NCBI GenBank assembly: GCA_963971425.1
Contig: OZ020516.1
Coordinates: 36,878,199 to 36,942,198, forward strand
Direction: 5' to 3'
Origin: Bryoerythrophyllum caledonicum
Taxonomy: Eukaryota; Streptophyta; Bryopsida; Pottiales; Pottiaceae
DNA length: 64,000 bases
The notes beneath the pieces were generated by a model. The model was given only the letters and a program-made list of their open reading frames with translations, had not been told where the DNA came from and made no database searches. The position numbers were made by a program, and so were the translations under genes. Below are positions 4,962-45,202 of this stretch, piece by piece; position 1 is the first letter of the stretch; every line of letters begins with the position of its first letter.

Positions 4962-6673
4962 CAGTACCTTGCAAATGAGTTACGTTTATTGTATCCACAG
5001 GGCAGTAAACAGACATGGAGTTGTAATTTCAAATTGGCATTACAGATTCAATTTTAGGCCAAATCATGTATGGAAAATTGCATTGGAAAGGTAATGAAGT
5101 GGACTTTGCTGCAAGAAGAAAATTTTACAACAAACTTTCAAAATCATACAACAATAAAGTATCTTAGAATATACTACCTACCATCTTATGCTACTACCTT
5201 CAGCATCAATTACAACCTTCATACGTTTAGGCATGCTAGCAATGAGGATCTCAATTATTTCCTGAGAGATGCCTTCCCAAGCCCGTTCAATGGATTCAAT
5301 CATTTCTTCTTGGTTTTTTGGTATCGGCCCATTTTGTACGCAGTCCTTTACAATCATCCATAGGTTTTCTGTAGGGTTCAAGTCCGGCGAGTTTGCCGGC
5401 CACTTCAGCTTCTTAATGTGATGCCCCACTCTCCAACTTTCAGCGTATTTACTACGATGCACTGGGGCGCCATCTTCCATGAGGATAAGATTCTCACGCT
5501 CATCATGCATGAAATAAAAGCCACTTAAGCGACCTTCATATACAATATTCACAAAATCTTCACTTGTGCGTTTGTGAAGTGGCATAACGATAATAGGGCA
5601 CTTATCAAAGCCACTAAAGGCACCCCAAATCATGACGAAAGTGCGGCCCGACTTGAATGTGGGGGCTATGCAATCCATTGAGTAGCGTTCATACGCTGGA
5701 CGCCAAACCTTGACTTGTCGGGACCTCTTTCCAATTTCAAAAGAAGACTCGTCTGTCCACATAATGTTGCGCCAATCTGATAGAGTCCATCTCTTGTGTG
5801 TCTTTGCAAATGCTAGCCTATTTGCTTTGTGTTTCTCACTCAAATATGGCTTCCTCACTGCAATTCGATTGCCAAAACCCAATTTGTTGATATACGTTGA
5901 CAATGTGCGCTAGCAGACCTTGACCCTCATCTGCTCAATGATATCTCTACGAGATAGGTGACGATTTTGGGTGAGAATGCGCGCAAGGTCCCTCTTATCA
6001 CGAATTGAAAGCTTTTGAGCCCTTCCACAGGGCTTATGCGCTACCACTCTACCATGCTCACAGTAGTTCTTCCAGATAGTGAAGACAGAATATTGACTCA
6101 TTTCCAGTTCCTTCGCAATATTATAAGTTGACATTCCAGCACTCCGCATTCCCACGATGACCCTTCTTTCTTCCTCACTCAAAGTCCTTGTCTTCATCTC
6201 TCTCAAATGGAACCAATACATAACAAGCATGCAAAGACAACAACATGCACAACTTTGCACAGACCATATACCCAACAATTTCGACCTCCACCAACACTGA
6301 GTTTTGCTACAAACACTCTAGCACTCAAATCCACTACGATTCTTAGAACCCAAGGATCCATTGTGTAGCTGCAAGTCAGAAAAAATCTTTGTTGTGATGG
6401 CGTGTTCGCAGTTAATATTGTTGCAAGCATTCCAGCTGTAGTGACAGCAAGTTCAAGCTGTCTCTTAAAAATCCCAAAATTTGTAGCTGTTGACATTTTA
6501 GTACGTCCTAAATTTAGCAGCTGGTGAGTCACAACTATGATTTTCATGTATCCACTAAGTTACGTAGCCAGGTGTTTGAAATTCTTGCCAAGATCTAATT
6601 CGGAAGTGACACCACTATAGAAGACGTGTTCTGACAGTTCAAGAAATAAATGTAACTCATTTGCAAGGTACTG
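4962..6673 (-). mobile_element. Tc1-type DNA transposon with TA target duplication
   Basis: The ends are inverted repeats of about 29 bp beginning CAGTACCTTGCAAATGAG, one mismatch apart, each flanked by TA (4960-4961 and 6674-6675), as expected for Tc1/mariner insertion. The 1.7-kb interior carries one transposase frame on the minus strand. Length, ends and coding content are all typical of a full-length autonomous Tc1 element. It would be complete apart from a single in-frame stop in the transposase. Confidence 0.88.
5178..6197 (-). pseudogene. Tc1-type DD34E transposase, interrupted by one stop codon
   Basis: A 340-codon frame starting at the Met of M-K-T-R-T-L-S-E-E-E. The N-terminal third is a paired helix-turn-helix DNA-binding region (G-M-S-T-Y-N-I-A-K-E-L then R-R-D-I-I-E-Q-M). 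The catalytic part has M-W-T-D-E-S-S-F, M-E-D-G-A-P-V-H and P-D-L-N-P-T-E-N-L-W, with 34 residues between the second Asp and the Glu, hence DD34E. A single TAG at 5912-5910, between the DNA-binding and catalytic regions, interrupts the frame; the same frame continues at once afterwards. Upstream in-frame Met codons exist to 6278, but the chosen start fits the family length. The one defect suggests a recently lost or possibly readthrough-dependent protein. Confidence 0.85.
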
Positions 6674-13138: not shown

Positions 13139-13728
13139 ATGGCTTCCGGTAGTATTGTGAAAACGGCCCTTGGCTCAAACTTCTCAGACACCGAGTGCGT
13201 GCATCTTTGCAAGGCCTGGATCTAAACTTCTCAGAATTCTGTCCAAGGGACTAGACATGAACTTCTACCTTTTCTAGGAAAAAATTCACAAGGCATAGGC
13301 GCACATTGAGCCACGTAATGTTCCTTCACGCACGGCGCGGAACTTGGACACTAAATGGCCGGAAATTAATAGGTTCAAATGCAGCTCGTGAACAAATTTG
13401 GAACAAACAAAGAGAACCGCATTGAAGAGGCAAAGAATTTGTATTTCAAATTCTATGGTGGAGGTGAAAAAAAGCCCAAACCTTTAGGGTACTTGGAGTG
13501 TTGGAGGTACCTCAAGGTCAAAGAGAACTGGAGGAGTTTGACTGTCAATGGGAAGGAGAAATCTCCAAGCACATCTGCATTGCTTCCACAAGAAAGAGAG
13601 GGATCTCCGATGCAAGCTACTTGGGACTCTCTAGAGCAGCCGACCAAAAATAATTGAAGGTGCTTTCAAAGTTGGATGTAATGATCAAGAAGATGGTCAA
13701 ATTGTACAAGAGGACGACGGCGGTGATG
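13139..13728 (+). pseudogene. Trihelix/NAM-like gene remnant, 5' part, split by the 15.6-kb transposon
   Basis: From an ATG at 13139 the translation gives S-N-F-S-D-T-E-C-V-H-L-C-K-A-W-I, then after a stop T-S-Q-N-S-V-Q-G-T, then (shifted frame) E-K-I-H-K-A and R-N-V-P-S-R-T-A-R-N-L-D-T-K-W-P-E-I-N. This is the pattern of trihelix/Myb-like DNA-binding proteins found as plant genes and as the second gene of PIF/Harbinger transposons. At least two stops (where a Trp and a Tyr are expected) and frameshifts show it was already decaying. The last codons, K-R-T-T-A-V-M, run into the target-site duplication and continue in phase at 29369. Confidence 0.65.
13719..13728 (+). repeat. Target-site duplication, left copy (10 bp)
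   Basis: GGCGGTGATG is repeated exactly at 29369-29378. Both copies sit 7 bp outside the matching inverted core of the element ends. Confidence 0.88.
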
Positions 13729-13735
13729 CAGGAAT

Positions 13736-13790
13736 GCTAGAATGTGAGTAGTGAGCAGTGAGCAATGAGCAGTGAGCGGTGAGCAGTGAG
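13736..13790 (+). repeat. Left inverted end with GTGAGCA heptamer array
   Basis: The core GCTAGAATGTGAG is followed by about six copies of a 7-bp unit, GTGAGCA, with single changes (AGTGAGT, AATGAGC, GGTGAGC). The right end has the same core and about three units. Such short subterminal repeats are commonly transposase-binding sites; that role is inferred here. Confidence 0.8.
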
Positions 13791-13957
13791 CACACACCAA
13801 TTTTTTTTTCCATTTGGACACCCCAAAACCACAGATTAGGGGTGATTGACAAGAAACAATTATACATTGTGACCTATTTCCGTGGTGTGAAAAAAGTTCA
13901 AAATGAGAGGAAATTGAATTAATTAACCCGGAAATAAACCGTTTGGAGGATATTTGG

Positions 13958-14011
13958 ATGAATGTAGATAGATGGATGAATGTAGATAGATGAATGTAGA
14001 TGAATGATTGT
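13958..14011. repeat. Minisatellite, GATGAATGTAGATAG-type
   Basis: About three and a half imperfect units of 12-19 bp built from GGATGAATGTAGATAGAT, inside the left subterminal region of the 15.6-kb element. Confidence 0.6.
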
Positions 14012-14437
14012 TGTCGTTATAGTTAAAAATATATAACAACTTATTAGTAAAACCTTTTTAGTCTCATTCAGACCTAAGCAACAACATAGAATGAAATAAT
14101 GTCTTCATGTGATTTCAACAATGATATCGGCAATGTGTAGCAACTTTTGGGTCAAGCCTTTGATTTTTGGTAGGAGCTAATGGTAGGAGCACATGGGGAA
14201 CGTAGTGGTAGAAATATGCTAAAATCGAAACACACTTTGAATTAAATTCAAAAGTGTTTCGATTTTTATTAGAAAACATGAAATCACTTGGGTTGAGAAA
14301 AAAACCTGATGTTCTTTCACTAAAAAATAACTTAGGAATACTTCAGTTTTTAACATGCCATATTCTTTAAAGTGGTGGTCATGGCCCATTACTTGACTAT
14401 GATGGAAATTGAAAAATTTTCAATTACCAACGGAGGG

Positions 14438-14548
14438 GCTCCTCGGTACCGAGGAGCGCCCTAAGGGCGAAACCAAAAAAAAAACGTAAGAGGAAAATTA
14501 AAAATAAGAAAATAACCATCTACCAAGGGGCTCTTCGGTACCGAAGAG
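14438..14548. repeat. Two perfect palindromes of the CTCGGTACCGAG family (left end)
   Basis: 14438-14457 is a 20-bp perfect palindrome and 14531-14548 an 18-bp perfect palindrome. Both are centred on GGTACC, and the second has TT/AA in place of CT/AG in the arms (compensating changes on both sides). A third, decayed copy is at 14672-14693. The same core recurs at 19780-19797, 20513-20530, in each 211-bp unit and at 28631-28660. Confidence 0.8.
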
Positions 14549-15234
14549 TGCCATGATGGAAGGATGAATATGGATGAATAAGGATGAAAGTGATTGAACG
14601 ACTCTAATGGATTGACAAAAAAAAACCAATAATACTTATGAATAACACAAGACAAACATCATAAGATTAGAGGCTACGCGATACCGAGGAGCCTTTGTGA
14701 ACCTAATCGAAAAAACTTAAGTGATTAGGGTAAAAAATAAGTGAACCAATAAAAAATAGCTCAACATATTTAATGAGCTATTACAATAAAGTCATTTACA
14801 ATTGTGTTTTCAATTGCATTACAAACTGGACATAACCTATCAGAAATCATAATACAAATACCAGAAAATAAATACACTAGTACATGATGAAGCACATTGA
14901 ATTGAACACATAGATACAACTTAAAGTAGTATTAGAATCTGTAAATCCACCAAAACGCTATTTGGTGACAAGGGAATAAAGATCAACTAGATAATGTTTT
15001 GAAGCGAATACATAGTATTCACAAATCTTCAAATTCTAAAGCATAATACAAATGTGGAACAAATAGAGTAGACAACGCAATTAAGAACTTAAGTAGTGGC
15101 CCTTTTAGTCTCACCACATGGATTAAATAACGGCATACAATGAATATAGTCAACGCTTAGAAACACATATGGAACCATTAACACCTACTAGAGAAGCGCC
15201 AGAAGAGGTAGCACCAAAATGGCTTTCACTGCTT

Positions 15235-18200
15235 TCACTGCTCGTAGTCGATGTATCTACAACCCTTTGGGTCATATTTAGGTAATTTAGTGATTCGGGT
15301 AGGAGTATCCTCGTTCGCAAGATCGATGGCCATTGCCTCAATGTAGCACGGTAAGGACATCGCACTTGGAGGACTAGGAAAGAGGTCTATCAACCTGCAA
15401 AAAGTATAAATAATGAATAAGCTCATCATATAGATTACAATGAAATAAACTTAGATGAAAGAAAGGATAGAACTTACGTACACATGCGATTCTTGGGAAT
15501 CCTCTTCTGAGGCCTTCCCTCGGGCGGGGCTTCTTCAGAAGCTGACACCTTCCGTTTCTTTCCTCCAGAGTTATCTTCTGAAGACTTCGAAGAACAAAGA
15601 GGCACTAGAACGGCCTCTAGAATTTTGGCGTCTGACTCAAGGGCAATGAGGTGACGACCGCTTCGACGACAGGCATGAACGCTAGCGCCTACAAATACAC
15701 AAACATGATGAATAAAGGACGTTGCGAACTTATGGAATTTGAGAAAAAAATATTCAATCGAATAATATTGAGGGTGATGATAGAACCTGTTGATGCAGTG
15801 CAGTCCAAAACAACATTCCCAGGTTTGGAAAAACTTTCAAGTAGCAATTGCACAAGAACAGGGCACTTCTCACGTGGTCCTCTCCACATCTTATCTCCAA
15901 TCTTCAAAGCGGTGTTTGGCGTAGTATAGTTATAAAGAACACCCGCCCCGACTATATCAATGTCCAAATTACTCATTTCTCGGTTAACTTCAATGGAGAA
16001 GTTCGAACTGACAGGCATATCATTGAAAGAGTCCCTCACATATAGAATGATCCAAAATCGCTTACTCTGAATGAACAAAAAATACAGTAAACGTTAAGAA
16101 ACACATATTAGTTTAGAAATACATGTACACATGCAGAAATTTGAAGAACACATGATGACCAAGGAAACATATAATTAATCTCAACTTAGCCAATCGTAAA
16201 ATATACACCACAAATTAACAGACTTCTCAAATTAAAATGTAAGCCTTCAATATTAGGCAAAAATTTGAGAAAATTGACGTTTAACAAATCATACCGTCCG
16301 AGAAGGGCTTTTGAATGAAGTGAGTGGCATCTCGTTGATGCCCCACCAATCAAACAAAGCAGTGAATCCATAAGCTTCGGCAAGCGAATCTGTTGTAGTT
16401 CGAACGTCTGGAAGATCAGGGTGAAATAACATGATAGCCCCATCATCTTGGAGTGTGTCACGAGCCACTTCAAAGATGGATTCCGGCCAATCCTTCTGTA
16501 AAATATTCCACGAAGGGACAGTTAATCCCATACCTGGGATAGGAAGTCCATCGGGCATATCTGTCATGATAAGATCAAAACAAGCTTCTCTTTTAGGCAC
16601 ACCACCAAGGCGACGTTGACCTTGACCAACCTATTAAGAAAATGTACCACAGACAAATATCATTAGAACATGACCTCAGAAAGGAAATATGGCAGATTCA
16701 GTGATGTAGTTGGAAACAGAATAGAGTCATAGGGTCAAACCTTCTGAGCAAATAACAAAAGTTCCTTGAACTGAGGAGACGGCTCCCGCTCCTTGAACAT
16801 GTGATCCATAATGGTAGGAATTGAAGTATTCATCAGAAGGACTTTGGCATCAATTCCATGTGTGTCAGTGCGTTTAGCAATCTTCTCGTATAGTTGAGAG
16901 GGCGCACAAAGTTCAGTGGACATGGATAGCAATTCCGTAGGGCAATGTGTTGGATTACTCAACGTGCCAGGGTTGATGGTGGCAATAGATATAGTTTCCG
17001 AGGCACTTACCAGAACATCGGCTTCCTTTTCACCCTTGTTTTTTGAACTACTTGCCTTGGACTTTTTGGTCTCATTTGCACTCTTAGACACCTTTGAGCC
17101 TTTGGTTTCCTTGCCATTCTTGGTTGTCTTCTTTGTTTGTACCTCGCATGGGGCATCCATAGACTTGTCTTCATCAGAATCCTCATCAGGCGCTTGAATT
17201 AAGGCGGTTTGTTTTGTTTTTTCACCTTCCTCCTCGCTCGGGACAAACTTCTTGGAGCATTCCAAGTACCATGGAGACGCGTTAAGCTCCTCCATACTGA
17301 AAGCACGAGCTTGGCTAGGTGTAAACATATACGAGTCTCCTAAAGTCTTTTCCGTCCAAGCTCCAAATAATTTAGGAAAGGTCTTCTTGTCGATTGCATT
17401 CCTACCAAGAAGCTCCCTCTTGAAATATCTAGAATACAGATAATGTAAAACTTGAGATAAGCATATCACAATTTTTGTTACTGCAATATAGTGGTACCTT
17501 GCTTCCAATAATACTCTACCGAAACAATGGAAAGGTCGCGTGCGAGATCCCATATAATAATCCAAGTAAATCCCAATATGATGACGGCCATGTTCATTCA
17601 ATCCGACAAGGGCTGAACTAATGACACTACAAATAGTTTCTATATTCACTGGGGACGCCTCCTCAATCTCGAGGAAGAAAAAGAGTATCAAGTAAAATTT
17701 TTTTGAATACTTAACTGTATTGAAGACGCATCATAGCAATTTTAGTTCCTTCTTGAGAAGCAAACGGTTTTGAACGAGAGTATCCTCCTGCCTTCCGGAA
17801 TAAGAAAAAGAATGCTTGATCCCATAATATGATGCGCCACTTCTCGATGTAGTCTTCAATTTCGTCCACATCATCTCTTGCTCTCCAGTCAATTACGATG
17901 TGCTCTGATGTCATAGTGTCTTTGACGGCTTCCACAGTGGCAAACTCCAACTACGATTTTAAACCATTAGAATATCAAGCACTATGAATTTGACATTCAA
18001 TAATTCTTAAGGCTCAATGAGAGTACATGAAGATGTTCTCTTTATACACTCACCTCTGCCCAGAAGGCTGCCTTGACCAACCACGCTTCAAGTTTCTCAT
18101 CTGTAACACCAATCGCTGGGAAACGGAGAGCTACGCGATTCAAGTCTCCGGAGTTCCACCAATTCAACCACTTTACTTTAAACGCGGGTTCAACAGATGA

Positions 18201-19620
18201 TGATGAGATCTTCTGAAGCTTCTCTATCGACATCTCCGGCTTTTCAAAGTGACTCCAATGATAGTTAATCTGAAGTACAAATAAATAGATCCAATTCAGA
18301 ATAATGAAATACAATTCAGAACATAATAAAGAAAAAATTACTCACCCCTTCAAGAAACTTTGGCCCGTGTTTGGGATTGGCAATCGAAACCATCTTGTCA
18401 AACTCTGTCCTGTAGGACTTCACTTTTGCGTTGGAGGCACTGTTCATTGCTGAGTGAATGCCTTGTGCATTTTGTTCTGACTTCTCAGTCTTCTCCAAGT
18501 ATAATCTTGCTGCCTCATCTGCTGCAGCAGATACCTCTTGCTGTAAAGCTCAAGACAATGATTAGGATTAAAAAAAATAATGTAAGCACTTCAACTTCAC
18601 GAGTGTAAAAGTAATACTCACTCGGTTTAAAAATTTGATGAACACATCCGATGTCAACGAATACCAAGGATAGGGCTTTTGGCGAGTCTCGCATGCAATG
18701 TATTCATCTGGAGTCAATAGGTCTTTAAAATCCGATAACTTTAAAACACCATAAGTATTAATTCGATGCAGTTTGTGCACAAGGTTAGTCTTTATGTGGG
18801 CATTCTCAGTGGATCTGCATAAAGATGCGATTGAAATTAGAATTTTAGAACCGACTCATCTTAGACTATTAAAATCACGTAAAATTAGATATTCATACCT
18901 GTTCACATCATTCATCGCGTTCAGAAGGACACCTGTATTGTCCTTTGACGAAAGTAGAATTGAATCAACTGAATAGTGCCAATCTTTCTCCTCACTGCGA
19001 AAACGAGAAATATGAGAATACCACGATTGGAACCTGTGATTGCCATCCCAAATGAAGAACATATGACCCACAAGAGCCGTCAAATTCTTGTCTGTTGATA
19101 AAAACTCCTCAAAGGCCGCATCCTCTTGAAGCCAGTGCACATCCCATTTCTCCATAATCTCTTCTGTGACAAGTTGAGTCTTTCCAGAGTCATCTGTTAG
19201 TGAAACATAGAATACCCTGTCGCCTTCACGGTATCCGTGGACAAATTCCGACTCTAATCGTTTGACATCAGAGTGGAGCAGAGGACGGACTAACGACAAA
19301 GGGATCATTCTACAAAGTGGGATCCTGATTCGAGAGGAACTTATGGGCTTGAAGCGTAATTCCTGGATAATAGAAATGGAATCCAGCTTCCCCCTCACCC
19401 TGAAGGCATTCTCGGCCTCATCAATGCTAACTCCACCCATTCCATCTTCCACCGTGTTTTCCACATTTCCATCAGTAGTAGCCATCTCCACATTTATTCC
19501 ATCGCCATGAACAGGAGTTTCGACATGAGCCGTAATCGAGTCATCTAAATCGATCTCCATCTCCTTCGATCCAACCCCAAGTAATAGGGGTTCGATTGCA
19601 ACACCTTCTTCAATCCCCAT
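15235..19620 (-). CDS. Transposon-borne multi-exon protein with C-terminal beta-class DNA amino-methyltransferase fold
   Basis: Eleven exons can be chained: 19620-18899, 18814-18622, 18540-18346, 18269-18054, 17950-about 17716, 17667-17498, 17428-16741, 16630-16295, 16066-15787, 15688-15478 and 15394-15235, about 1,130 codons. All junctions except exon 5/6 are GT-AG and in phase. The N-terminal 850 residues match nothing I know; a Lys/Ser/Glu-rich linker lies in exon 7. Exon 8 holds D-L-I-M-T-D-M-P-D-G, at the position of catalytic motif IV. Exons 9-10 join to K-P-G-N-V-V-L-D-C-T-A-S-T-G then G-R-H-L-I-A-L-E-S-D, the SAM-binding motif I region. Motif IV before motif I is the beta-class order of N4-cytosine/N6-adenine methyltransferases. 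G-G-K-K-R-K-V in exon 10 looks like a nuclear localisation signal. Motif IV is D-M-P-D rather than (D/N/S)-P-P-Y/F/W, so activity is uncertain. The exon 5 donor (ACAGTTAAG) leaves a phase mismatch, a possible splice mutation. Confidence 0.72.
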
Positions 19621-20511
19621 CTACAAGATGTCAACGAACCAAAATCAGGTCGACGTATATGACATGATGCGACTTTAGACTAGATCCTCGGTACCTTCTA
19701 AACTTATGAACATCGCATCTACGTCATTCCAGAAAACCAGGCTTCCTACTTTACAATATCCCGGAAACCATAATACAAGATCCTCGGTGCCGAGGATGAC
19801 TATTTGGTACAAGCTTAAATGAATCATCCTCATCAGGTAATCAAGTTATACAAGGCATCATCTTAAACCAATCAACTGAAACGAGTTTCAGCATCATCCA
19901 CAATAACCGAAAAGAAGTAATCAAGTTAGTATAACAAGTGAGGTCCAGTTTGCTCATTAAGATATACGAGGTGCACCATCCTCAACAACTTGTAAACTGT
20001 AACGAAGCAATATGAACTCAAGAGTCAAAACCATGAATGAAAACAACAGCAAAAAAATAACAAGCAACTTAAACGAAGTTTGAACTAAGCAACTTAAATG
20101 AGGTCCAGCATCTACATCAAGGTAATCGAGGTCCAGCAACCTTATCAACGATAACAAAGTATCAAGTTTTCAAATTCTAGACACGACATCCACGTCATTG
20201 CAGATGACCATGAAGGTAGTTTATAATCTCCCGAAATCAAGTATACCACATCCTCGGGACTGAGGAGGACTTTTTAATACAAGCAAAAATTAATCATCAT
20301 CATTAACTTATCAAGTTATATAGAGCATACAAGTTATACAAAGCACCATGTTATACAAAGCAACCTAAACTGATCAACATAAAATGAGGTCCAGCATCAT
20401 CCAAATTAACCGAAAAGTAATATCAAACTCGCAACACAAGCAGCATTAACTCAAACCATGAATGAAGTCAAAACCACCATGAAAAATAAGTCTCTGGCTT
20501 GCGGTGGAACG

Positions 20512-22010
20512 CCTCCTCGGTTCCGAGGAGCAATTTTCATGTCCTACAGATGTCTTCTGTCGAGTCCAGGATTATCAGGTTTATGAGATCAGGTCGATCC
20601 CGGTTCAGAGTCAAACACGTCCTTTTCAGTGCATCATCAGCATCCTACAAGCTGAAAATAATCAATAACCTCGAGTGCAGATTACATTAAAAAAAAACGA
20701 GTTCACCATATACGCACAGTAAGCCTCCTCGGTCCCGAGAAGGAGTTTCTATCAAGATCAGCACTTCTCCATCAAGTCCAGGTTTAGCGTAATCAACATT
20801 GCCGAGTCTAGGATTCCTTGCACTGTCCACGTCCTACGGTGCATCATCAGCATCCTACAAGCTGAAAATGATCAATACCCTCGAGTGCAGATTACATGAA
20901 AAAAAACGAGTTCACCATATACACACTTTGAGCCTCCTCGGTCCCGAGGAGGAGTTTCTATCAAGATCAGCACTTCTCCATCAAGTCCAGGTTTAGGGTA
21001 ATCAACATTGCCGAGTCTAGGATTCCTTGCACTGTCCACGTCCTACGGTGCATCATCAGCATCCTACAAGCTGAAAATGATCAATACCCTCGAGTGCAGA
21101 TTACATGAAAAAAAAAATGAGCTCACCATATACGCACAGTAAGCCTCCTCGGTCCCGAGGAGGAGTTTCTATCAAGATCAGCACTTCTCCATCAAGTCCA
21201 GGTTTAGGGTAATCAACAATGCCGACTCTAGGTTTCCTTGCACTCTGCACGTCCTACGGTGCATCATTAGCATCATACAAGCTGATAATTATCAATACCC
21301 TCGAGTGCAGATTACATGGAAAAAAAAACGAGTTCACCATATACGCACAATAAGCCTCCTCGGTCCCGAGGAGGAGTTTCTATCAAGATCAGTACTTCTC
21401 CATCAAGTCCAGGTTTAGGGTAATCAACAATGCCGAGTCTAGGTTTCCTTGCACTCTGCACGTCCTACGGTGCATCATTAGCATCATACAAGCTGATAAT
21501 TATCAATAACCTCGAGTGTAGATTACATTAAAAAAAACGAGTTCACCATATACGCACAGTAAGCCTCCTCGGTCCCGAGGAGGAGTTTCTATCAAGATCA
21601 GCACTTCTCCATCAAGTCCAGGTTTAGGGTAATCAACATTGCCGAGTCTAGGTTTCCTTGTACTGTCCACGTCCTACGGAGCATCATCAACATCCTACAA
21701 GCTGAAAATGATCAATACCCTCGAGTGTAGATTACATGGAAAAAAAAACGAGTTCACCATATACACACTTTGAGCCTCCTCGGTCCCGAGGAGGAGTTTC
21801 TATCAAGATCAGCACTTCTCCATCAAGTCCAGGTTTGGGGTAATCAAATGAATTGAGTCCTGGTTTCCGTTGAGTACTGCACGTCCTTACGGTTAATCAT
21901 CAGCGTCATACTTTTGAGAAATAATCAAAACCATCGAGTCAAGATGACATGGAAATAAAACACAAGTTTCTGGCTCGCCCACAATATGCCTTCTCGGTCC
22001 CGAGGAGCAG
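20512..22010. repeat. 211-bp tandem repeat array, about seven units
   Basis: Anchor palindromes of the CCTCCTCGGTCCCGAGGAGG type occur at about 20513, 20725, 20933, 21144, 21355, 21564, 21775 and (decayed) 21990, giving a period of 209-211 bp. Units share the words ATCAAGATCAGCACTTCTCC, CGTCCTACGGTGCATCATC and CTCGAGTGCAGATTACAT. The first and last copies are diverged and the middle ones nearly identical, as in arrays kept similar by unequal exchange. It lies between the two divergent genes of the transposon, possibly in the first intron of the minus-strand gene. Confidence 0.92.
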
Positions 22011-22149
22011 TTTCTATCAAGATCAGTTGCTACCCACTCACAATGCTAATAGTGTGTCGCCCACATGTACCATCGAGTCCTGGTTTAGTGTAATCAAGTT
22101 AATCGAGTCCAGGTTACTTCAGAGTAGTACATGTCCTTACGGTGCACCA

Positions 22150-24036
22150 CATTCAGCTTGTTTCCCACACACACCATCCCCTGTCGATGCTATATGCCGC
22201 CCACACACACTATTTCAAGGGTACCCGTTTCCTAAAATATCGGATCTACACAGATATGAGTGAGTAAGCACCATGTCATTGAATTCGGCTGGAGTCACAG
22301 AGTTGGGCAGACTGTTCTAAGTCACGCGTGTGACTGATTTCGACAATGAGGTCATATAATCGACATTGAATTCCACACCGAGGTCACTGAGATCGCCATA
22401 GCTGATCTTGATGTGCGTTTCTACTTTATCAGACTGGCACCTTTTGCTGGAGCGCCTAAAGCAGGTCTTGACGACACGCATCAGTCACCATAGACAACAA
22501 ATTCTTGGTACCAACGACGACGTTTTCACTCCAATCTCAGATCTAAGATCTACAGTCTGGCACCTAGATCTAGTGACACACCACTTACAGACTCTCGCAG
22601 ATATGAAACGCTTCAACTTCATGAGTGAGCGTGCGCACGCAAGAGCTCCGGAGCGCAAGTCTCAGGTAGCCTCTTCACTGGTTTAAGTTTACCACGAACA
22701 CAAACTAGTTCGTGCAGCAGTCCCGTCTCTCTAGTTGGCGGACGTGCAACACAATACATGAGCTGCCACAATATGAGATTCGCGAGACACAAGAGATGAG
22801 AAGCCACAAGACGCCGGACGTGCAACACAAATGATGAGCTCCCCAAGGCATCGGCCAAACCCTACTTCAACCAGACCCTACTTCGAATCTAAAGCGACCC
22901 TCGAACCGAAATCCCAGATGGATTCATTCATCAGAAAGATTCTTTCATCAACAATTCACTAATTCACTATTGGAACATGATATATTGTTAGTTCATCTGA
23001 TCTATGTTGATCTACTTTGACTCAATATATTGGCATACTATTCCACTAAAGGTTGCATAAATTTTATTGATTCAACATTCATGTCTTACCTTCTCTTAAG
23101 TCATTGCATTAAATTATCACAAGTATATGAGGTGTTTTAGACATATTAAAAAGTAAAATGATGAGGAGTTCGGAAAGTAGCCCATTCTTTTGAAAAGCAA
23201 GTAAATTTTGTTAGCAGAACCATACAACGGGCTCTAAATTCCAAATGGTGAAATAACTTTAACCCCCCTTCCACTGATAGAAATTAATATCTCTTCCAAA
23301 AAAGTAGCATCATGTATCTCTATACATGATGTATGAAAAACAATTAAGGTTGCCTACATTTTCCTTCATTGCTACCTGCCACAAAAACATTCACTAATAA
23401 GCTCAATTAGTGGTACTATTTATGCTATACATTTCCCTGCTCATTTTACCCTAATTCTCGTTTAATACTTCAAACCACAATAACTTTAGTTTCCTAGATT
23501 TCTTTCAAGAATTGCTTTTTCCCGCTCAGCTAAAACTAAAACGCAGGTATATTTATATCTTGAACACTTCGTGATTTATATTGACACAGATATAGGTCAC
23601 CTAAAATCACTGAATGCCCAACTTGGGAATTTGTGCATTTCGAGGCTACTAAGAGCTCAAATATACAACCCCTTACTACCTAGATCTATTTGTTCTAATT
23701 ATACAATCTATGTGTTCATGTATGACATGTCCTGTACTATACATGCACTTAATGCACACAATTATACACAAATACATTGATACAACTAATACAATTATAT
23801 CCTCTTCTGTGGTTATTGTACGTATTCGTATTTAGTGTATTCTGCACTAAAGCGATAGTGAAATCTTCACTAAGGGGTACCTTTTGAACTGGGTTTCTAC
23901 AATCCAAACGGATGACTAATAAACTCAAATGACGAGTCTGAAAGGAGCATTGACCTAGCATGCTCTATAGCATGTATTCTCACTATCAAATGAAGTAAAT
24001 TATACTCAAAATATAAACGTGGGTTACAGACCTCAC
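22150..24036. other. Interior of the transposon without clear gene
   Basis: No domain-bearing frame is seen. Near 22740 and 22812 the words CGGACGTGCAACACAA and ATGAGCT are repeated 72 bp apart. It could be the rest of a long first intron of the minus-strand gene. Confidence 0.4.
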
Positions 24037-24315
24037 CTCAGGAGATTGGTCACCCGCACTTATTTGTGAAACCGGTAATTGTGTCAAAGAGTCGAACACT
24101 TCTACTTCAGCATCAGTTGGTTGTCCCGTGTCATCTTCATGGTGATCTCCAGAGTTGGCCTGTAAATCCTCTAAATCGTCCCTAGAGTTATACAGTAGAC
24201 TACCTCTCAATGACGGATCTCCCACCTCTGCGGTCCTACAAGCCATGCTCTCAAAGGTAGAAGCCAAGGATGTCCCCCTTCCCTCCGCATACCTTGTCTG
24301 GTAGCGCCTCGACAT
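24037..24315 (-). CDS. Candidate 5' exon of the methyltransferase-like gene (or separate small gene)
   Basis: An open frame from M-S-R-R-Y-Q-T-R-Y runs 93 codons to S-P-E and then meets a good donor (GAG|GTGAGG) in phase 0. The exon at 19620 starts immediately after an acceptor AG (TTGTAG) and is also in phase 0, so the two can be joined across a 4.4-kb intron containing the 211-bp array. The peptide is acidic in its second half and has no domain I recognise. If not joined, the gene at 19620 starts at its own ATG and this frame stands alone. Confidence 0.4.
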
Positions 24316-24913
24316 TCTAGACTTCTCTAGCTGTATTCCTAGTGGAAATCCCTAACCCTTTCCTTGCACTCTTCCTCTTATGCCCCTACAACAATAATCT
24401 CTACGTTTATAGCCACGACCACTGTCCTCCAGAATGACTCACATCCTATGCGTCATCCTAACCATTCACTTGTATTTTCTATCATGCCTACCCACTTATA
24501 TTGGCTAAAATAACTATTACTCCGCCACAGATTCGTTGGAAAACTAAATTCATAAACCCTTTGCTATACTTTTAATATTTCTGCTATCGTAGTTGTTTGA
24601 AATTTGAAATTGTACCAATCTGAGTCATTCTTATTTAACAGCATTCTATATACGCTTCTGACAGCCGCCCATGGACATCCATGATTTCAGTGTCTTTATT
24701 GTTTCTCTTCAAAATCAAAATCGGTCTTCATACTAAATCTACCCAAATCGCCGAGTGTTACTTTTCCACAGTAATGTTTAATCATAACCTTTTCCATCCA
24801 AAGTTATCCTCTGACAAAATTAAACTTTCGTTCCGCACTCTATATTCACTATCAAAGGAGAAGATTAATCACTAGCAAGTCACCTCTCCATTCCTAAACC
24901 CTCTCCTCCATCA
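24316..24913. promoter_or_regulatory. Probable shared promoter between the two divergent transposon genes
   Basis: A 598-bp gap separates the minus-strand frame starting at 24315 and the plus-strand transposase ATG at 24914. The plus-strand start is preceded by a pyrimidine-rich leader (CACCTCTCCATTCCTAAACC). The bidirectional role is inferred from arrangement alone. Confidence 0.4.
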
Positions 24914-27900
24914 ATGGCTATGGCTTCTATTCGCGGATTGAACCACATTGTCCCGTTGTCGCTACCTGTGGATGATGACGGTGTTGTTTGGGTTGCCGAA
25001 GCAATGCTCTCGCAGCGCTTCAGTTTAGATAGAACGTCCATGTGGTTAGAGATGGAAATCTACGACATTGAGGGTTTAGAGGTAGTTTCGACAGTGTTGC
25101 AGAAGAAAAGAGTCAAGGATACAGAAGTAACCTGGAGACTCCCAGCTGGGAAATTCAGAGTTTTTGGTGTTCCTCTTGAAAGCCGCTCGCTTCTTACCCC
25201 TGAGTCTAGGAAGTCTACAATGCACACTTCATTCCCGTCTTTTGTCAAGGTTCAGGGCTTGGAGACTGACACTGTTATTCTAAGCGAGTCATCTGATGAC
25301 GACGGTCGTCCTCAGGAGAGAGCCCGTCAGTATTCGTTTCTTTCCCCAATTACTGAAACTGTTATTGAACAGCAGGAGAGCGGATCTCAGTCTCTCAATA
25401 CCTTGCCTTCACTAAATTCCCGACCGCCTTTACCTCGTAAAAATGACACATGTTCTGTTCTAGAGTGCCTTAGGCAATTGCAGAGTAGACCACGTGGAAA
25501 GAATGATCTGAAGTTTCTCGATCTAGATACTCTACGTTGCGAAAAGGTCAAGTACCTTCCTCCAGAGTTTAACGGGAATGTGCTGTTCGAGTTCCCTCCC
25601 CTTCGGACCCTTCCTATTTCTACTTCTCCTTCAATAGCTCGCCAGATGGAAGGCATGGACAAACGATACGATGGTCATGCATGGACTAAAACCCATACCA
25701 CTAACATTGTGAACGACTTTGGGCTCACCTTTCGATCTTCTAATTATGTTGGTCACCTGCAGTGTAAGAACGATTCTTGCCCTAGGTTGCGTCGAAGCAG
25801 CTCTCATAATGAAACTGATTGGGAAGGCCATTCGCCCCATGTCTTTCCGCTAGGTGACATCCCTCCTCCGAACTCGACCCTTGTTTGCCGGATCTGTAAG
25901 TCTCCACCGTCTTGCCTTGAATTTTGCCCCTCCAAGATGTATTACGTCGTCAATAGAAATGGTATTGGTAGAGCCTGCATCCATATTGGTACACACCAGC
26001 ATCCTATTGCTAAGGGCACTTGCCGTGAAACCATCGACAAAGTCACGGAACTTGTGAGTAATGAAGTCTCTAAAACACCTACTGCAAAGAACTCTGCCAT
26101 TGCTCTAGCTGCTAGTAAAGAGTTTTTGTCGAATGAGGTCTTTGCACTTGATCGAGAGGGCACGCCCGAACCGCTTCGTGGGGATTCTCTAGTCAAGGTC
26201 ATGGAGAGGTTCCGGATACTTAGTTCTCCTAACATCAGAAATGCTATCTCTTCCTTCCGACCCACTGCTAATGGCGGACCACTTGACAACATCATCAAAC
26301 TGAAGCTCAAGAGTCCCTATGACTATATCCAAGACAGTGTCTTTCCAGGGCAAGGCAAAGAGAAGGTGTACCTTTTCAAGATGTCGGAAGAAGGCCCGGG
26401 CAGTGGTGTCGACCTCTTCAAACGTATGCAGCCTGGTGGAGATCTTCAGAACTCTTGGATCATGTTTGACCACGTCAAACGCGTAAAGGGCTGGACTACC
26501 ATGGCTGCCCATGTCTATGATCCCGAGTATTGTCGCGTGATGAGCATCGCCGTCTGTGATATGCAGAGCGAAGATGTCGAATCGCAGAAGTTAATGTGGC
26601 AGTCTTTGAACAAGGTGATGGTGCGCCACGGAATCCCAAACCCTAACTTCAAGGGTTTCATGGCGGACAGCGCCCAAGCGAACTGGAATGCTGTCCGCAT
26701 CATCTACGGGAATGGCGACCCAACCATTAAGATGGTTGACAAGGAGAGATCGTGTCTTCTTCATTGGGTGACATCTCTAAACAAACACACGAATAAGCTC
26801 ATCAAACCCGAATTTCGAGAACAACATGTGCGCCTCTGCAGACAATACAAAGACGCTAAGACATCCGAAGAGGCGGAAGAACTTTACCTCGGCATCAAAG
26901 GTTGGTGGCTCTCATCGCGTGCGGCATCGGAAGATGCAGTGCGTGAACTGGACGACTGGTTGGGTTTCTGGCATTTCCGCTATCGCCAGTGGGGAGGCTT
27001 CATGGACATGGTAAAATCCTAAACCATTCAACCCTAACTACTCCCTGCTTCATATTGTTGTCCTTCTGCATTGAAGCCCTAACCCTAAATTACCCATCTA
27101 CTAACAATTACTGAACTATACTACGGAACCATAAACTCTGTGTCTTGCAATCCAGAAACTAGACATTGAGCAATTGGCGGAGATGCCACTTGCAACCTCG
27201 CGGAGACTGTGCACAACAAGTGGTTGCAAATGTCGGGGAACCGAGGGACATGCCTTTATGTAGCTACGACGGACAACATGATGCGAGCAATGATGCAGTC
27301 CACCAATTATTGGGCGTTCCTTCAAGGTCACGCATCTGGAACTGGGCCCCACCTCGATGAACTTCGGCTTCGGGCAGCCAGACGTTCGAAGGACCCGGTA
27401 AAGATTGCTGCCGCAATTAGCTTGCTTCCAGGGGCTGATAGATTCGCCACTAGAGTTCCCCACTTAGAGGGTGAAGAAATTTTTGGATCTAGCAAACGGA
27501 AGCTTGATCTTCCACCCGGATCAGATGAGGACTCTCATCGGCATGACAAAGTTAACTTCTCCCACCCCCGTGTTCAAACCCGTTCAACACGAGCTCGAAC
27601 AGAGGCACGAACTTCGAAGGTCAACACCCCTTTTATTGAATCTACTGGTACCTATCTTCCACATGCGACTTCTATTCTTGAGACTGAATGCAATCCACAT
27701 CAGTGGCACATAGGACGCTGCAAGAAAGTTGGAAAGAAATGTCCTAGCATTCAGGTAGGAAAGAAGGTTACCAAATGTGGATCTTTAGTCTGCAAGGATA
27801 AAAAGAATGGTACTCCTGCACCAACTTACAACGGTCGCATGACAGAGTATGGTACTAGGGCAATCATCAACTTTGATTTCTGGTTTTGCCCCGATGATAT

Positions 27901-28546
27901 CAACAGATGTGTTCACGGATCCAAATCCAGGTATGTCCATGACTGGCCCACTATTCCAGAGATTTGGCCGGTTGCTTACGGCACTAATCTGACAAAGAGC
28001 GAGATCCTAACATTGGAAGAAGGAGGCTTCCAACTTCAAACGAAGGACTTTGATATGTCGCCCCGACGTCTCTTCCATAGGTCACCCACATCAACTCCAG
28101 CAACCATTGTGAGTCCTAGTCCATCAAACGGTGATTCACATCCAACAAAGCGCTATGGGAGGACCATCAAGCGGTGGGAAAAGGCTCCTACTGTTGACCA
28201 TCGCAACAAGTGGGAAACAGCCCGGAACGTCTCGGCTATTGTGAGGAACGTCACTACAATTCCGTATCATGGTTATGGAAGAATCATCACCATGGATTCT
28301 GGTATCAATCCCAAACAAAAGACATATATTGTTTCACTTTGTGACTTTCCGTCTTGCACATGTGAAGATTTTATTACCATGAACAGTGGAGCATTAGGCA
28401 AACGCAAAGCGTGGGTGAACTGCAAACACTTGTATTATGTATTCAGATTCTTGTGCAAGGCAAACCTGGAGGATGACAAGTATATACATGCACCAAGTCT
28501 TAGTTTCAATGAAGTACAGCTCCTACTCCGCAATAGTAATCTATAA
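24914..28546 (+). CDS. MULE-like transposase with zinc module and SWIM finger, apparently frameshifted
   Basis: Exon 1 (24914-27010, 699 codons) ends at ATG|GTAAAA; exon 2 begins after TCCAG at 27155 and runs to 28546. A zinc module lies around residues 325-362 (C-R-I-C, S-C-L-E-F-C, then I-H-I-G-T-H-Q-H). The catalytic RNase H-like core has D519 (M-F-D-H), D585 (M-A-D-S-A-Q) and C614/H617 (the CxxH of MULE transposases). In exon 2 the expected Glu is in N-L-A-E-T-V-H-N-K-W (27194-27223). The C-terminus has a SWIM finger: C-T-C-E-D at 28354 and V-N-C-K-H at 28418. The phase set by exon 1 reads K-L-D-I-E-Q-L-A-E-M-P and then falls out of frame. The family sequence resumes in the next frame at T-C-N-L-A-E, so one base seems missing near 27186-27188. 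A different splice could rescue it, but I found none in phase. Confidence 0.82.
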
Positions 28547-29327
28547 GTTATTTTTTGTCATAGTAGTTATGGCAAGTTATTGCCTCTTTTATAGTTGAAC
28601 TTTGAAACTACACGAAACTTTTGAGGCCCAAAAGGGTTCCTCGGTACCGAGGAACCCTTTCGGGCTTCCCAAAAAACTTGTGAAGTTCAACAATTTTTAT
28701 TTGTAGAAATAGTAAAATGATTTTTGAGGATACAAATTTTGAAGCATGTTTTACCTGTTGTCGAGAACGGGAAAAAAAATCCAAACATTAGACAAATTCT
28801 AAAGAAATAAATGGGCCTAATAGGCTCTTTGGTACAGAAGAACCTCTTTTGACTTCTTCAAAATCTTGTACTTCATTGATTCATCGTCACTCTTGAAAGG
28901 ATTGTCTTATTTTGCAGCATGAATTATGAAGCACTGTAAACATTCATAGTTTTTGTATCCCATTAAATTTCATGTCGTTCTTAATGAAATTTTCGTGAAA
29001 CTAGATAAGATTTTGAATGGATGTCGTAAACTTCATTCATCTACAAACTCTGTTTATCTATCAAATAAATCTGCCAAACTTATTCATCCATTTAATGACG
29101 AGAAATAGTCAACTCCATAATAAACTTTGGATAGATTTGTTCCAATAATTCAACAATTATTTTCATGTGAAGCAATTTCATAGCCCATTCGTCCGTGAAA
29201 AATCACAGAAGACATTTGTAATCCACGGTAATAGGTTGCAAAATTTTACTAAATTTAGAAAATTCTAAATTTTATTTTTAGATTATTACTATAATTAGAA
29301 TATCCCTGACCATTTTTATCCTCCCTC
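28547..29327. other. Right subterminal region of the transposon
   Basis: Downstream of the transposase stop. No gene. It contains the 30-bp palindrome and a decayed palindrome at 28823-28844. Confidence 0.6.
28631..28660. repeat. Perfect 30-bp palindrome, right subterminal
   Basis: The arms AAAGGGTTCCTCGGT and its inverse meet at GGTACC; pairing resumes further out with GGCCC/GGGC. It is the longest member of the palindrome family that marks this element and lies 85 bp after the transposase stop. Confidence 0.85.
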
Positions 29328-29361
29328 CTCACTGCTCACTGCTCACCGCTCACATTCTAGC
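29328..29361 (-). repeat. Right inverted end with heptamer units
   Basis: Read on the minus strand it begins GCTAGAATGTGAG and continues with GTGAGCA-type units, mirroring the left end at 13736. Confidence 0.82.
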
Positions 29362-29368
29362 GTCGTTT

Positions 29369-29537
29369 GGCGGTGATGGAGAGGGCTGTCAATTTGGAGG
29401 ATCGGAGTGCACAGATGCAACTCTCCTCCATGGATTTGTCGAGGATGTCACCTAAGAGCGCAAAGTATTACACATTACTCCATAAGCAAGCTATGGAAAA
29501 ATTAGCAACACCTCACACTGCAACTTTAACTCCATAA
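29369..29537 (+). pseudogene. Trihelix/NAM-like gene remnant, 3' part
   Basis: Beginning with the second copy of the target duplication, the frame reads A-V-M-E-R-A-V-N-L-E-D-R-S-A and M-D-L-S-R-M-S-P-K-S-A-K-Y-Y, ending T-L-T-P-stop at 29537. The Asp/Met-rich helix followed by S-P-x-S-A-x-Y-Y is the usual ending of NAM-associated C-terminal domains. Joined to the left part over one copy of the duplication, the phase is continuous. Confidence 0.65.
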
Positions 29538-43960: not shown

Positions 43961-45202
43961 ATGGGGGAAATAGTCCAGCCAATGCACTTGGGTATGCTTA
44001 GCGGGAATAAGAGTGGAAGTGAAGCAGAGCGGATTGAATTGTCCAAGAAGTGTAATTGGAGCATACCTACAGAGTTTGCTACCAAAGAAGAAGAAGAACA
44101 AGCTGGATGTTGTTGTTGGCGTCGAAAGGCCGTGCCGGATGTGGCAGAAGTGAGCAATAGAAGGATTTTCAAGGCTTTGCAACAACATCATGTTTGGGGT
44201 CACTTCTTCCAAGAATTTAATAGAGGTGATGGGTCAATGTTGACAATAGGAGCAAAGTTTGCGAAAGGCATGCAAGCGGAAGTCTTCCATGCTGAAGTCA
44301 AGTGGGCAAGTTCAGAGCTAAATGAGGAGGATCAACACAAGGGACGAGAGTGGGTGTTGAAGGTTTTTAGGAAGGGAACATTCTTGGAGGACTTGCAAGC
44401 GCAGCTCCCTCGTGGATTGTTGGAAGTCCATGCCGTACGGAAGAAAAATTGGGATTCTGCTCGCCGGAAGAAGCTCTCTAAGTACTCTTGCCATATATAC
44501 CGTGGGACATTGCTAGAAGACGGGAGGTTTGCGTTTGTCATGGTTAAAGAACATTCTGACTTGCGTACTGTCATTGATTGCAACATGGAATCAAGGCGTA
44601 GAGAACATGGTGGACCCTTTTCAAAAGAGGAGGCTGAATGTATAATGTACTATGTTGCACTCGGAATGGATTGGTTGCACGGTCATGACATCGTTCATAG
44701 GGACTTGAAGGCATCTAATGTCCTTGTTCGTGAATTCAAGAATGTGCTGCCAAAGTGGTTTTGTTATGTGGCAGACTATGAATGTTCCGTCGGAGTTGTA
44801 GGAACAGGGTTTTTTCGAGCACCTGAGATATTACAAGCATGCAAAGAACGGAAGTTGCATGAGAGGCCGGAAGTGTTTTCAAAAGCAGCCGATATGTACA
44901 GCTATGGAATGACATGTTATGAAATCTTCACGGGGAATTTACCATTTGAAGGTCATAATCCAAGTGAATATGATATTGTCCTTGATGGTAGGCATCCGGT
45001 GGTGCCTGAGCATGTTGAAGATTGGAAATGTGACCTAATGAATAGGTGTTGGCATAGGGATCCTAAATTGCGGCCTACAATTCAAGAAGTACTAGGGCTC
45101 ATTAGAGTACATTCTCCATATGCTATGAGTCGTACAGAATGGGTGTATAGTATTTTTGGTGAACATTATAGTTTCAAGTATGAATTTGGAGATGTAGAAT
45201 AG
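43961..45202 (+). CDS. Intronless protein kinase-like protein, 413 residues
   Basis: A single open exon. The kinase domain runs from about residue 95: a glycine-rich loop variant (G-A-K-F-A-K-G-M-Q-A-E-V-F), the ATP-anchoring Lys in W-V-L-K-V-F (K134), H-R-D-L-K-A-S-N (catalytic D248), then A-D-Y-E where D-F-G is usual (D272). The activation segment is very short, V-G-T-G-F-F-R-A-P-E-I, and is followed by D-M-Y-S-Y-G-M-T-C-Y-E and the final C-W-x-R-D-P-x-L-R-P-T. This resembles the TKL/dual-specificity kinases expanded in mosses. The first 95 residues (C-C-C-W-R-R-K, basic) have no domain I know. Family members can be longer, so the N-terminus may be truncated; a Stowaway MITE lies 340 bp upstream. 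Confidence 0.85.
   Translation: MGEIVQPMHLGMLSGNKSGSEAERIELSKKCNWSIPTEFATKEEEEQAGCCCWRRKAVPDVAEVSNRRIFKALQQHHVWGHFFQEFNRGDGSMLTIGAKFAKGMQAEVFHAEVKWASSELNEEDQHKGREWVLKVFRKGTFLEDLQAQLPRGLLEVHAVRKKNWDSARRKKLSKYSCHIYRGTLLEDGRFAFVMVKEHSDLRTVIDCNMESRRREHGGPFSKEEAECIMYYVALGMDWLHGHDIVHRDLKASNVLVREFKNVLPKWFCYVADYECSVGVVGTGFFRAPEILQACKERKLHERPEVFSKAADMYSYGMTCYEIFTGNLPFEGHNPSEYDIVLDGRHPVVPEHVEDWKCDLMNRCWHRDPKLRPTIQEVLGLIRVHSPYAMSRTEWVYSIFGEHYSFKYEFGDVE

Follow-up and report, generated by a model that had tools for sequence, protein, structure and literature searches.

A large two-gene transposon with a methyltransferase-like second gene in Bryoerythrophyllum caledonicum

What kind of mobile element occupies more than 15 kb of this Bryoerythrophyllum caledonicum locus, and what is a second, multi-exon gene doing beside its transposase gene? 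We analyzed a 64-kb stretch of a 437-Mb assembly (C3:36878199-36942198), referred to below as the window. The element at positions 13729-29368 of the window (15,640 bp) is one transposon copy with the perfect 10-bp duplication GGCGGTGATG on both flanks. It is a single damaged copy of a family of large two-gene, terminal-inverted-repeat DNA transposons that make 10-bp duplications. Its anatomy and the joint mobility of its two genes are practically certain. The second gene, here called gene B, was noted only in passing in a preliminary description of this locus; it is the most important part of the element.

Borders, termini, and the empty site

The left and right copies of the target-site duplication lie at 13719-13728 and 29369-29378, and the inverted core GCTAGAATGTGAG stands exactly 7 bp inside each of them, as the preliminary description had claimed. 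The terminus on the gene-B side (13729-13792, plus strand) is composed of CAGGAAT, the core, and GTGAGCA heptamer repeats, and the terminus on the transposase side (29321-29368, minus strand) of heptamer repeats, the core, and GTCGTTT. The terminal inverted repeats have 41-bp inverted arms of 88% identity that include heptamer repeats. Just internal to the gene-B-side end, short GATGAATG-type tandem repeats were found (13955-14011). Across the genome, the core gave 119 forward and 132 reverse matches and the reversed control word 1 and 2, which makes the core a genuine family mark.

A search of the assembly for further copies sharing both ends yielded 13 other elements, picked among the first 100 listed core places by having both cores near each other. 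The comparison set thus comprised 14 elements: the window element, four other long ones (e1-e4), and nine that are short. When the ten bases at offset 7 on either side were compared, all ten matched in nine of the 14 elements, nine matched in two, and eight in two; in the remaining one (e3), a 9-bp duplication fits. Wrong offsets in the same elements gave only 0-6 matching bases of ten, and left and right flanks taken from different elements (182 pairs) gave a mean of 2.5 and a maximum of 6. No copy among the 14 contradicted the proposed borders by ending elsewhere or lacking the duplication. The 7-bp tips were conserved with few variants, CAGGAAT at one end and GTCGTTG at the other (the latter in most relatives examined), the window copy having a changed last base in its transposase-side tip (GTCGTTT). 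Because of this conservation, the 7 bp that separate the core from the duplication belong to the element as its terminal bases, which rules out that they are filler outside it.

The preliminary description had also argued from the logic of an empty site, and this argument held. When the element and one duplication were excised in silico and the flanks joined, a single open frame resulted, ...KRTTAVM-ERAVNL..., with weak similarity to the NAM-associated domain (E 0.0085, below the cut-off). The joined flanks had 23 genome matches, two of them the window's own halves. Four crossed the site, starting no later than query base 10 and ending at base 308, at 66-70% identity, and ten more spanned it in shorter alignments, some of them gapped. 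These spanning matches are paralogous empty sites and not the allelic one.

Two genes that move together

Gene B (15160-19620, minus strand) is divergent from the plus-strand transposase gene, whose exons 1 and 2 lie at 24914-27010 and 27156-28546. Gene models were predicted from splice signals and conservation. The extra multi-exon gene of the preliminary description is present, with ten predicted exons whose structure is conserved in L059 and L061, members of two related families. Exons 1-5 were placed at 18899-19620, 18622-18814, 18346-18540, 18054-18269, and 17715-17950; exons 6-9 at 16741-17428, 16295-16630, 15787-16066, and 15478-15688; and the last exon begins at 15394, its frame stopping at 15235 in the window copy. 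An additional exon at 17498-17617 was rejected, since comparison with L059 identified it as intron; its inclusion had made relatives look frameshifted.

The element had been described as complete, which is correct for its structure and incorrect for its coding sequence, since both genes of the window copy carry lesions. Gene B has lost the GT donor of intron 5 (17713-17714, minus strand) and carries a 26-bp deletion near its end, and the transposase has a one-base deletion early in exon 2, where the frame breaks near 27188. One C12 copy, which is 98-99% identical in the region compared, has the donor and lacks the 26-bp deletion as far as the sequence reaches, so the gene-B lesions of the window copy look young; this near-identical copy has one stop in its transposase. 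In e1 and e2, the two gene regions and the two ends are arranged as in the window element and are about 90-93% identical to it in DNA sequence; the centre differs. Element e1 is broken in both genes and e2 has both frames open, while e3 and e4 have lost parts. At one end the nine short elements retain about 250-330 bp and at the other 1 kb, which is what one would predict of non-autonomous copies.

Two more distant families have the same pair of genes. The sub-2 family (L059/L060, C12) is represented by a 14,835-bp element in which neither gene is interrupted. Its termini are CAACGACGCTAGC and CAGGGTTGCTAAC, and inspection by eye placed the duplication TTGTTGCTGG on either side of it. In the sub-3 family (L061/L062), whose C8 element measures 14,369 bp, identity to the other families is about 46-48% for the transposase and 36-37% for gene B. 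Its gene B keeps the exon structure and an open frame over the exons found, the upstream first exon being missing from the model. In families at identities of 56% and 36%, the gene-B frame is thus uninterrupted over the exons that were located. Three copies (C12:16445495, C12:16485326, and C879:25953) had identical scores, two of them lying about 40 kb apart, and are probably not independent insertions but products of segmental duplication or of redundancy in the assembly. Distant gene-B relatives, with about 40-58% identity over pieces, were also present near the core matches L001, L005, L006, L007, and L028 (the last used for gene-B relatives only), which indicates that several families share these ends. 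Loci L026 and L027 do not enter into any of the comparisons.

The association of the two genes was examined with lists of 62 transposase loci (66 rows, with four second pieces dropped) and 125 gene-B first-exon loci (the first-exon rows listed among 255 matches, with later-exon rows dropped). A gene-B first exon lay within 20 kb of 35 of the 62 transposase loci, and all 35 pairs were divergent, compared with a mean of 0.8 and a maximum of 4 in a shuffled control for which the lengths of C11 and small contigs were assumed. Pairing was found at 15/21 loci with a transposase identity of at least 85%, at 19/30 with 60-85%, and at 1/11 below 60%.

Both genes are under purifying selection. For gene B, the ratio of nonsynonymous to synonymous substitution rates (dN/dS) between the window copy and e2 was 0.27 overall. 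It was lowest (0.09) in the most constrained part, which carries a WDGNHR motif (18899-19380, minus strand), and reached 0.23 in the middle, 0.21 in the methyltransferase part, 0.50 in the N-terminal 80 codons, and 0.90 in the last 57 codons, where changes are few. Transposase exon 1 gave 0.15 in the same comparison, and the transposases of e2 and L060 gave 0.09; in the comparison of gene B with that of L059, synonymous sites were saturated. Purifying selection, open frames in distant families, and divergent pairing together show that gene B is not a random passenger.

Ten sub-3 loci, compared at their ends and searched regions, matched at 100% over a 215-amino-acid transposase region. Their gene-B first exons scored equally and lay 7304-7413 bp from the transposase, and 10-bp duplications were present in all ten (nine by script and the C2 copy, which has a base change at one end, by eye). 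Ten loci with an identical transposase region, both genes, and a 10-bp duplication demonstrate recent movement of the sub-3 family with its two genes together.

Gene B and its possible role

The methyltransferase-like domain of gene B was assigned by profile matches to three exons (15478-16630, minus strand). PF01555 (N6_N4_Mtase) matched the L059 protein at residues 815-999 with 35.1 bits (cut-off 26.7), and a profile of four gene-B proteins found CcrM (6pbd) with an E value of 2.4e-4 (6.8e-5 with three proteins). In the alignment, the DPPY of CcrM falls on D-[M/I]-P-[D/E] in gene B, a motif retained by all four aligned proteins even where identity drops to 36%. Matches in PHROGs (best 2.1e-7) and, well below the cut-off, in NCBIfam likewise point to DNA methyltransferases. 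Motif IV precedes motif I, the order of the permuted beta class of methyltransferases (compare PMC8885841). A ParB-like domain, suggested by the WDGNHR motif by eye only, was discarded for want of support from the libraries: the N-terminal part had no Pfam or PDB profile match to the ParB/sulfiredoxin fold, and the fold model of gene B (mean predicted local distance difference test score, pLDDT, 34.7) was uninformative on ParB either way. A viral scan and a prokaryote scan confirmed no gene-B relatives, each being a weak search with two short peptide patterns.

The element also carries repeated palindromes. A central non-coding array (20629-22026) contains 6.6 copies of a 211-bp unit with CCTCGGTCCCGAGG-type sites, and subterminal palindromes are located at 14434-14551 (CTCCTCGGTACCGAGGAG and CTCTTCGGTACCGAAGAG) and, toward the other end, at 28632-28655 (TTCCTCGGTACCGAGGAA). 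The window element contained 12 occurrences of the palindrome class [CT]TCGGNNCCGA[AG], and the remaining 48.3 kb of the window contained none. Genome-wide, CCTCGGTACCGAGG had 300 sites, compared with 0 for the reversed control, and 43 of the first 50 listed sites lay within 16 kb of a core match (0.5 at random). Palindromes stand near both ends in the window element, e1, and e3, and are absent at the transposase-side end of e2 and e4. The centre bases of the central array vary by copy, TCCC in most window units and TACC in e1, and the two arms covary (CC/GG to CT/AG), which fits a symmetric site. These repeats are candidate gene-B target sites in the window's family and in sub-2.

On the reading that we favour, the two proteins divide the work as follows. 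The transposase would be a divergent DDE enzyme whose C terminus binds zinc; it would bind the heptamer-rich ends and move the element by cut and paste. The gene B protein would bind element DNA, with the repeated palindromes as candidate sites, and would counter silencing or otherwise ready this DNA for transposition. That gene B acts on the element's own DNA appears probable; a function in anti-silencing in particular is put forward tentatively, by analogy. Methylation by gene B seems doubtful given the non-canonical catalytic motif, and since that motif is altered, our guess is that a binding or blocking role is likelier than methylation.

Several observations weigh against this interpretation. 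PF01555 stayed below its cut-off in three of the four gene-B proteins, namely those of the window (22.0 bits, obtained with an older gene model that included 17498-17617), e2 (18.8 bits), and L061 (22.1 bits). The catalytic motif (D/N/S)PP(Y/F/W) is lacking, with the first proline and the aromatic residue changed, the latter to an acid. Three of the nine short elements (s19, s21, and s22) have no palindrome site; the array is weaker in sub-2, with two perfect palindromes and five TCGGTGCCGA sites, and sub-3 has one related palindrome, CTTCGGCGCCGAAG, and no array of it. With longer lists, 60 of the 125 listed gene-B loci were divergent to a transposase, one had another orientation, and 64 had none listed, and 61 of 205 listed transposase loci had a divergent gene B; both lists are capped, with 150 of 2365 transposase candidates scored, so that a missing partner is uninformative. 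Finally, the transposases of e1 and e2 showed no visible selection (dN/dS 0.84 over 295 codons, synonymous divergence 0.025).

Alternatively, gene B might be a transposition co-factor, like mudrB or MutB, that serves integration or complex assembly and has no role in silencing. Its frequent position near the transposase, then nearly always divergent (35/35, or 60/61 with the longer lists), suits such a function, and accessory open reading frames (ORFs) of unknown function occur in Mutator-like elements (MULEs; PMC6446971). The explanation is a real contender but on balance somewhat improbable, since it leaves the methyltransferase-like domain and the palindrome arrays of the window's family unexplained.

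It is less probable still that gene B encodes a functional DNA methyltransferase whose active site is unusual and which marks element DNA with N6-methyladenine or N4-methylcytosine (6mA/4mC) for self-recognition or protection. The N6_N4_Mtase and CcrM matches and the retention of D-[M/I]-P-[D/E] across divergent proteins would fit such an enzyme. However, besides the substitutions in DPPY/SPPY, motif I is also altered, and the amino-methyltransferase motifs listed in the available part of PMC8885841 (SPPY, DPPY, NPPY, DPPY/F, and DPPW) never end in an acidic residue.

Passive carriage of a captured host gene, in the style of Pack-MULEs, is strongly disfavoured and very improbable: MULEs do capture host gene fragments (PMC6446971), and some of the 64 of 125 listed gene-B loci without a transposase could be host copies, but purifying selection and the conservation of exon structure and order in families at 36-56% identity speak against it. 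Chance nesting of two unrelated mobile elements, for which no supporting evidence was found, is refuted by the gene regions and ends shared with e1 and e2, by divergent pairing far above the shuffle, and by the constant spacing in the ten copies of the distant sub-3 family.

Returning to a gene B that acts on element DNA, we presume that the SET-bearing elements of Phytophthora, one of the known systems with a comparable gene content, belong to a different family from the element described here. They are MuDR/MULE elements with a chromatin-modifying extra domain, a SET histone methyltransferase (PMC12730594, PMC6446971), and differ in their histone target and oomycete host. A functional parallel is offered by the Arabidopsis VANDAL MULEs with VANC, likewise plant elements with a transposase plus further genes (PMC5735166, PMC10398659, PMC13317346). 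The motif bound by VANC sits in fast-changing non-coding tandem repeats (PMC5735166, PMC10398659), and here too short motifs lie in non-coding tandem repeats, change in number, and drift together between copies. In contrast, VANC is not described as methyltransferase-like in the accessible text of these papers, anti-silencing by gene B is hypothetical, and VANDAL elements make 9-bp duplications (PMC6446971) as opposed to 10 bp here.

The nearest precedent found for a DNA-modification-enzyme gene in a transposon is provided by the TET/JBP fungal transposons (Kyakuja-Dileera-Zisupton and others), in which such a gene stands beside the transposase (PMC12730594); there, the enzyme is a dioxygenase, the hosts are fungi, and Zisupton makes 8-bp duplications. 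The N4CMT of bdelloid rotifers is, similarly, a eukaryotic protein with a permuted N6_N4 methyltransferase domain, but it is a host gene product with SPPY and a chromodomain that deposits 4mC at transposons and is not transposon-encoded (PMC8885841). No transposon-encoded N6/N4 DNA methyltransferase in plants was found among the open-access papers listed by literature searches. Three kinds of tools used by transposons against host control were found in the available literature: VANC-type proteins, TET/JBP dioxygenases, and SET proteins. To these, a large transposon family in which selection maintains a methyltransferase-like protein would add a further route, and the ten recent insertions that carry the same transposase allow a direct test of it in a living plant.

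Placement of the transposase and surroundings of the element

The label MULE-like, used in the preliminary description, fits the anatomy and, as read by eye, the motifs of the element; profiles did not support it. The 10-bp duplication falls in the 8-11 bp range of MULEs and differs from the 8 bp of Zisupton-type elements. Exon 1 of the transposase contains two D residues and C-x2-H, and exon 2 contains the E residue and a C-x-C...C-x-H zinc pattern. All of these, with C-x2-H lying between the second D and the E, were assigned by eye and are conserved in the three families. However, PF10551, the MULE profile, had 138 matches in the genome and none at the 62 transposase loci (compared by eye), and a search of the three transposases against Pfam at E values up to 5 gave neither a MULE nor a SWIM match and only one chance match. 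An hhalign comparison with canonical MULE transposases returned a probability of 0.04, with low power because the MULE alignment consisted of two sequences of low diversity. The transposase fold model (mean pLDDT 39.2) was too poor to use, PDB matches to snake-venom proteins were judged to be chance, and a viral scan, a weak one with only two short peptide patterns, confirmed no transposase relatives.

Mutator-like elements share with this one 8-11 bp duplications and, going by the residues assigned here by eye, probably a DDE transposase, frequently have SWIM, and contain second ORFs in several groups (PMC6446971); their inverted repeats are commonly hundreds of base pairs long, in contrast to 41 bp here. 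The MULE group table of that paper, in the part available, includes no group from non-flowering land plants and no DNA methyltransferase ORF. On this evidence, the element would seem to work like a MULE, and we do not file it as a member, since the MULE profile is unmatched and the profile comparison is low-powered. The sub-3 transposase catalytic region was found at no fewer than 150 genome places with at least 75% identity (150 scored of 2365 first-look candidates), and sub-3-like transposases may possibly constitute one of the larger DNA transposon families in the genome. Such a large transposase family is unrecognised by Pfam, and elements of this type may escape annotation. A bolder proposal, which we consider rather unlikely as a whole, is that these giant plant transposons form a separate, abundant clade (perhaps a superfamily) outside the MULE profile, regularly equipped with a repurposed N6/N4 methyltransferase that would recognise their own palindromes as a self-targeted DNA-marking or anti-silencing system, and that they are still mobile or were so until very recently.

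In the flanks, a remnant on the minus strand (1246-1545) that is separate from the element matches the canonical MULE profile PF10551 (37.4 bits) and contains three stops. A Tc1/mariner-type transposase fragment lies at 5178-5909 on the minus strand (DDE_3, 45.1 bits; HTH_Tnp_Tc3_2 just under the cut-off). An Rfam scan of the window gave no match at the gathering score. On the other side of the element, an open frame of 413 amino acids with a protein kinase domain was found at 43961-45202 on the plus strand, and one with SAM and fibronectin type III domains at 54857-56215 on the minus strand.

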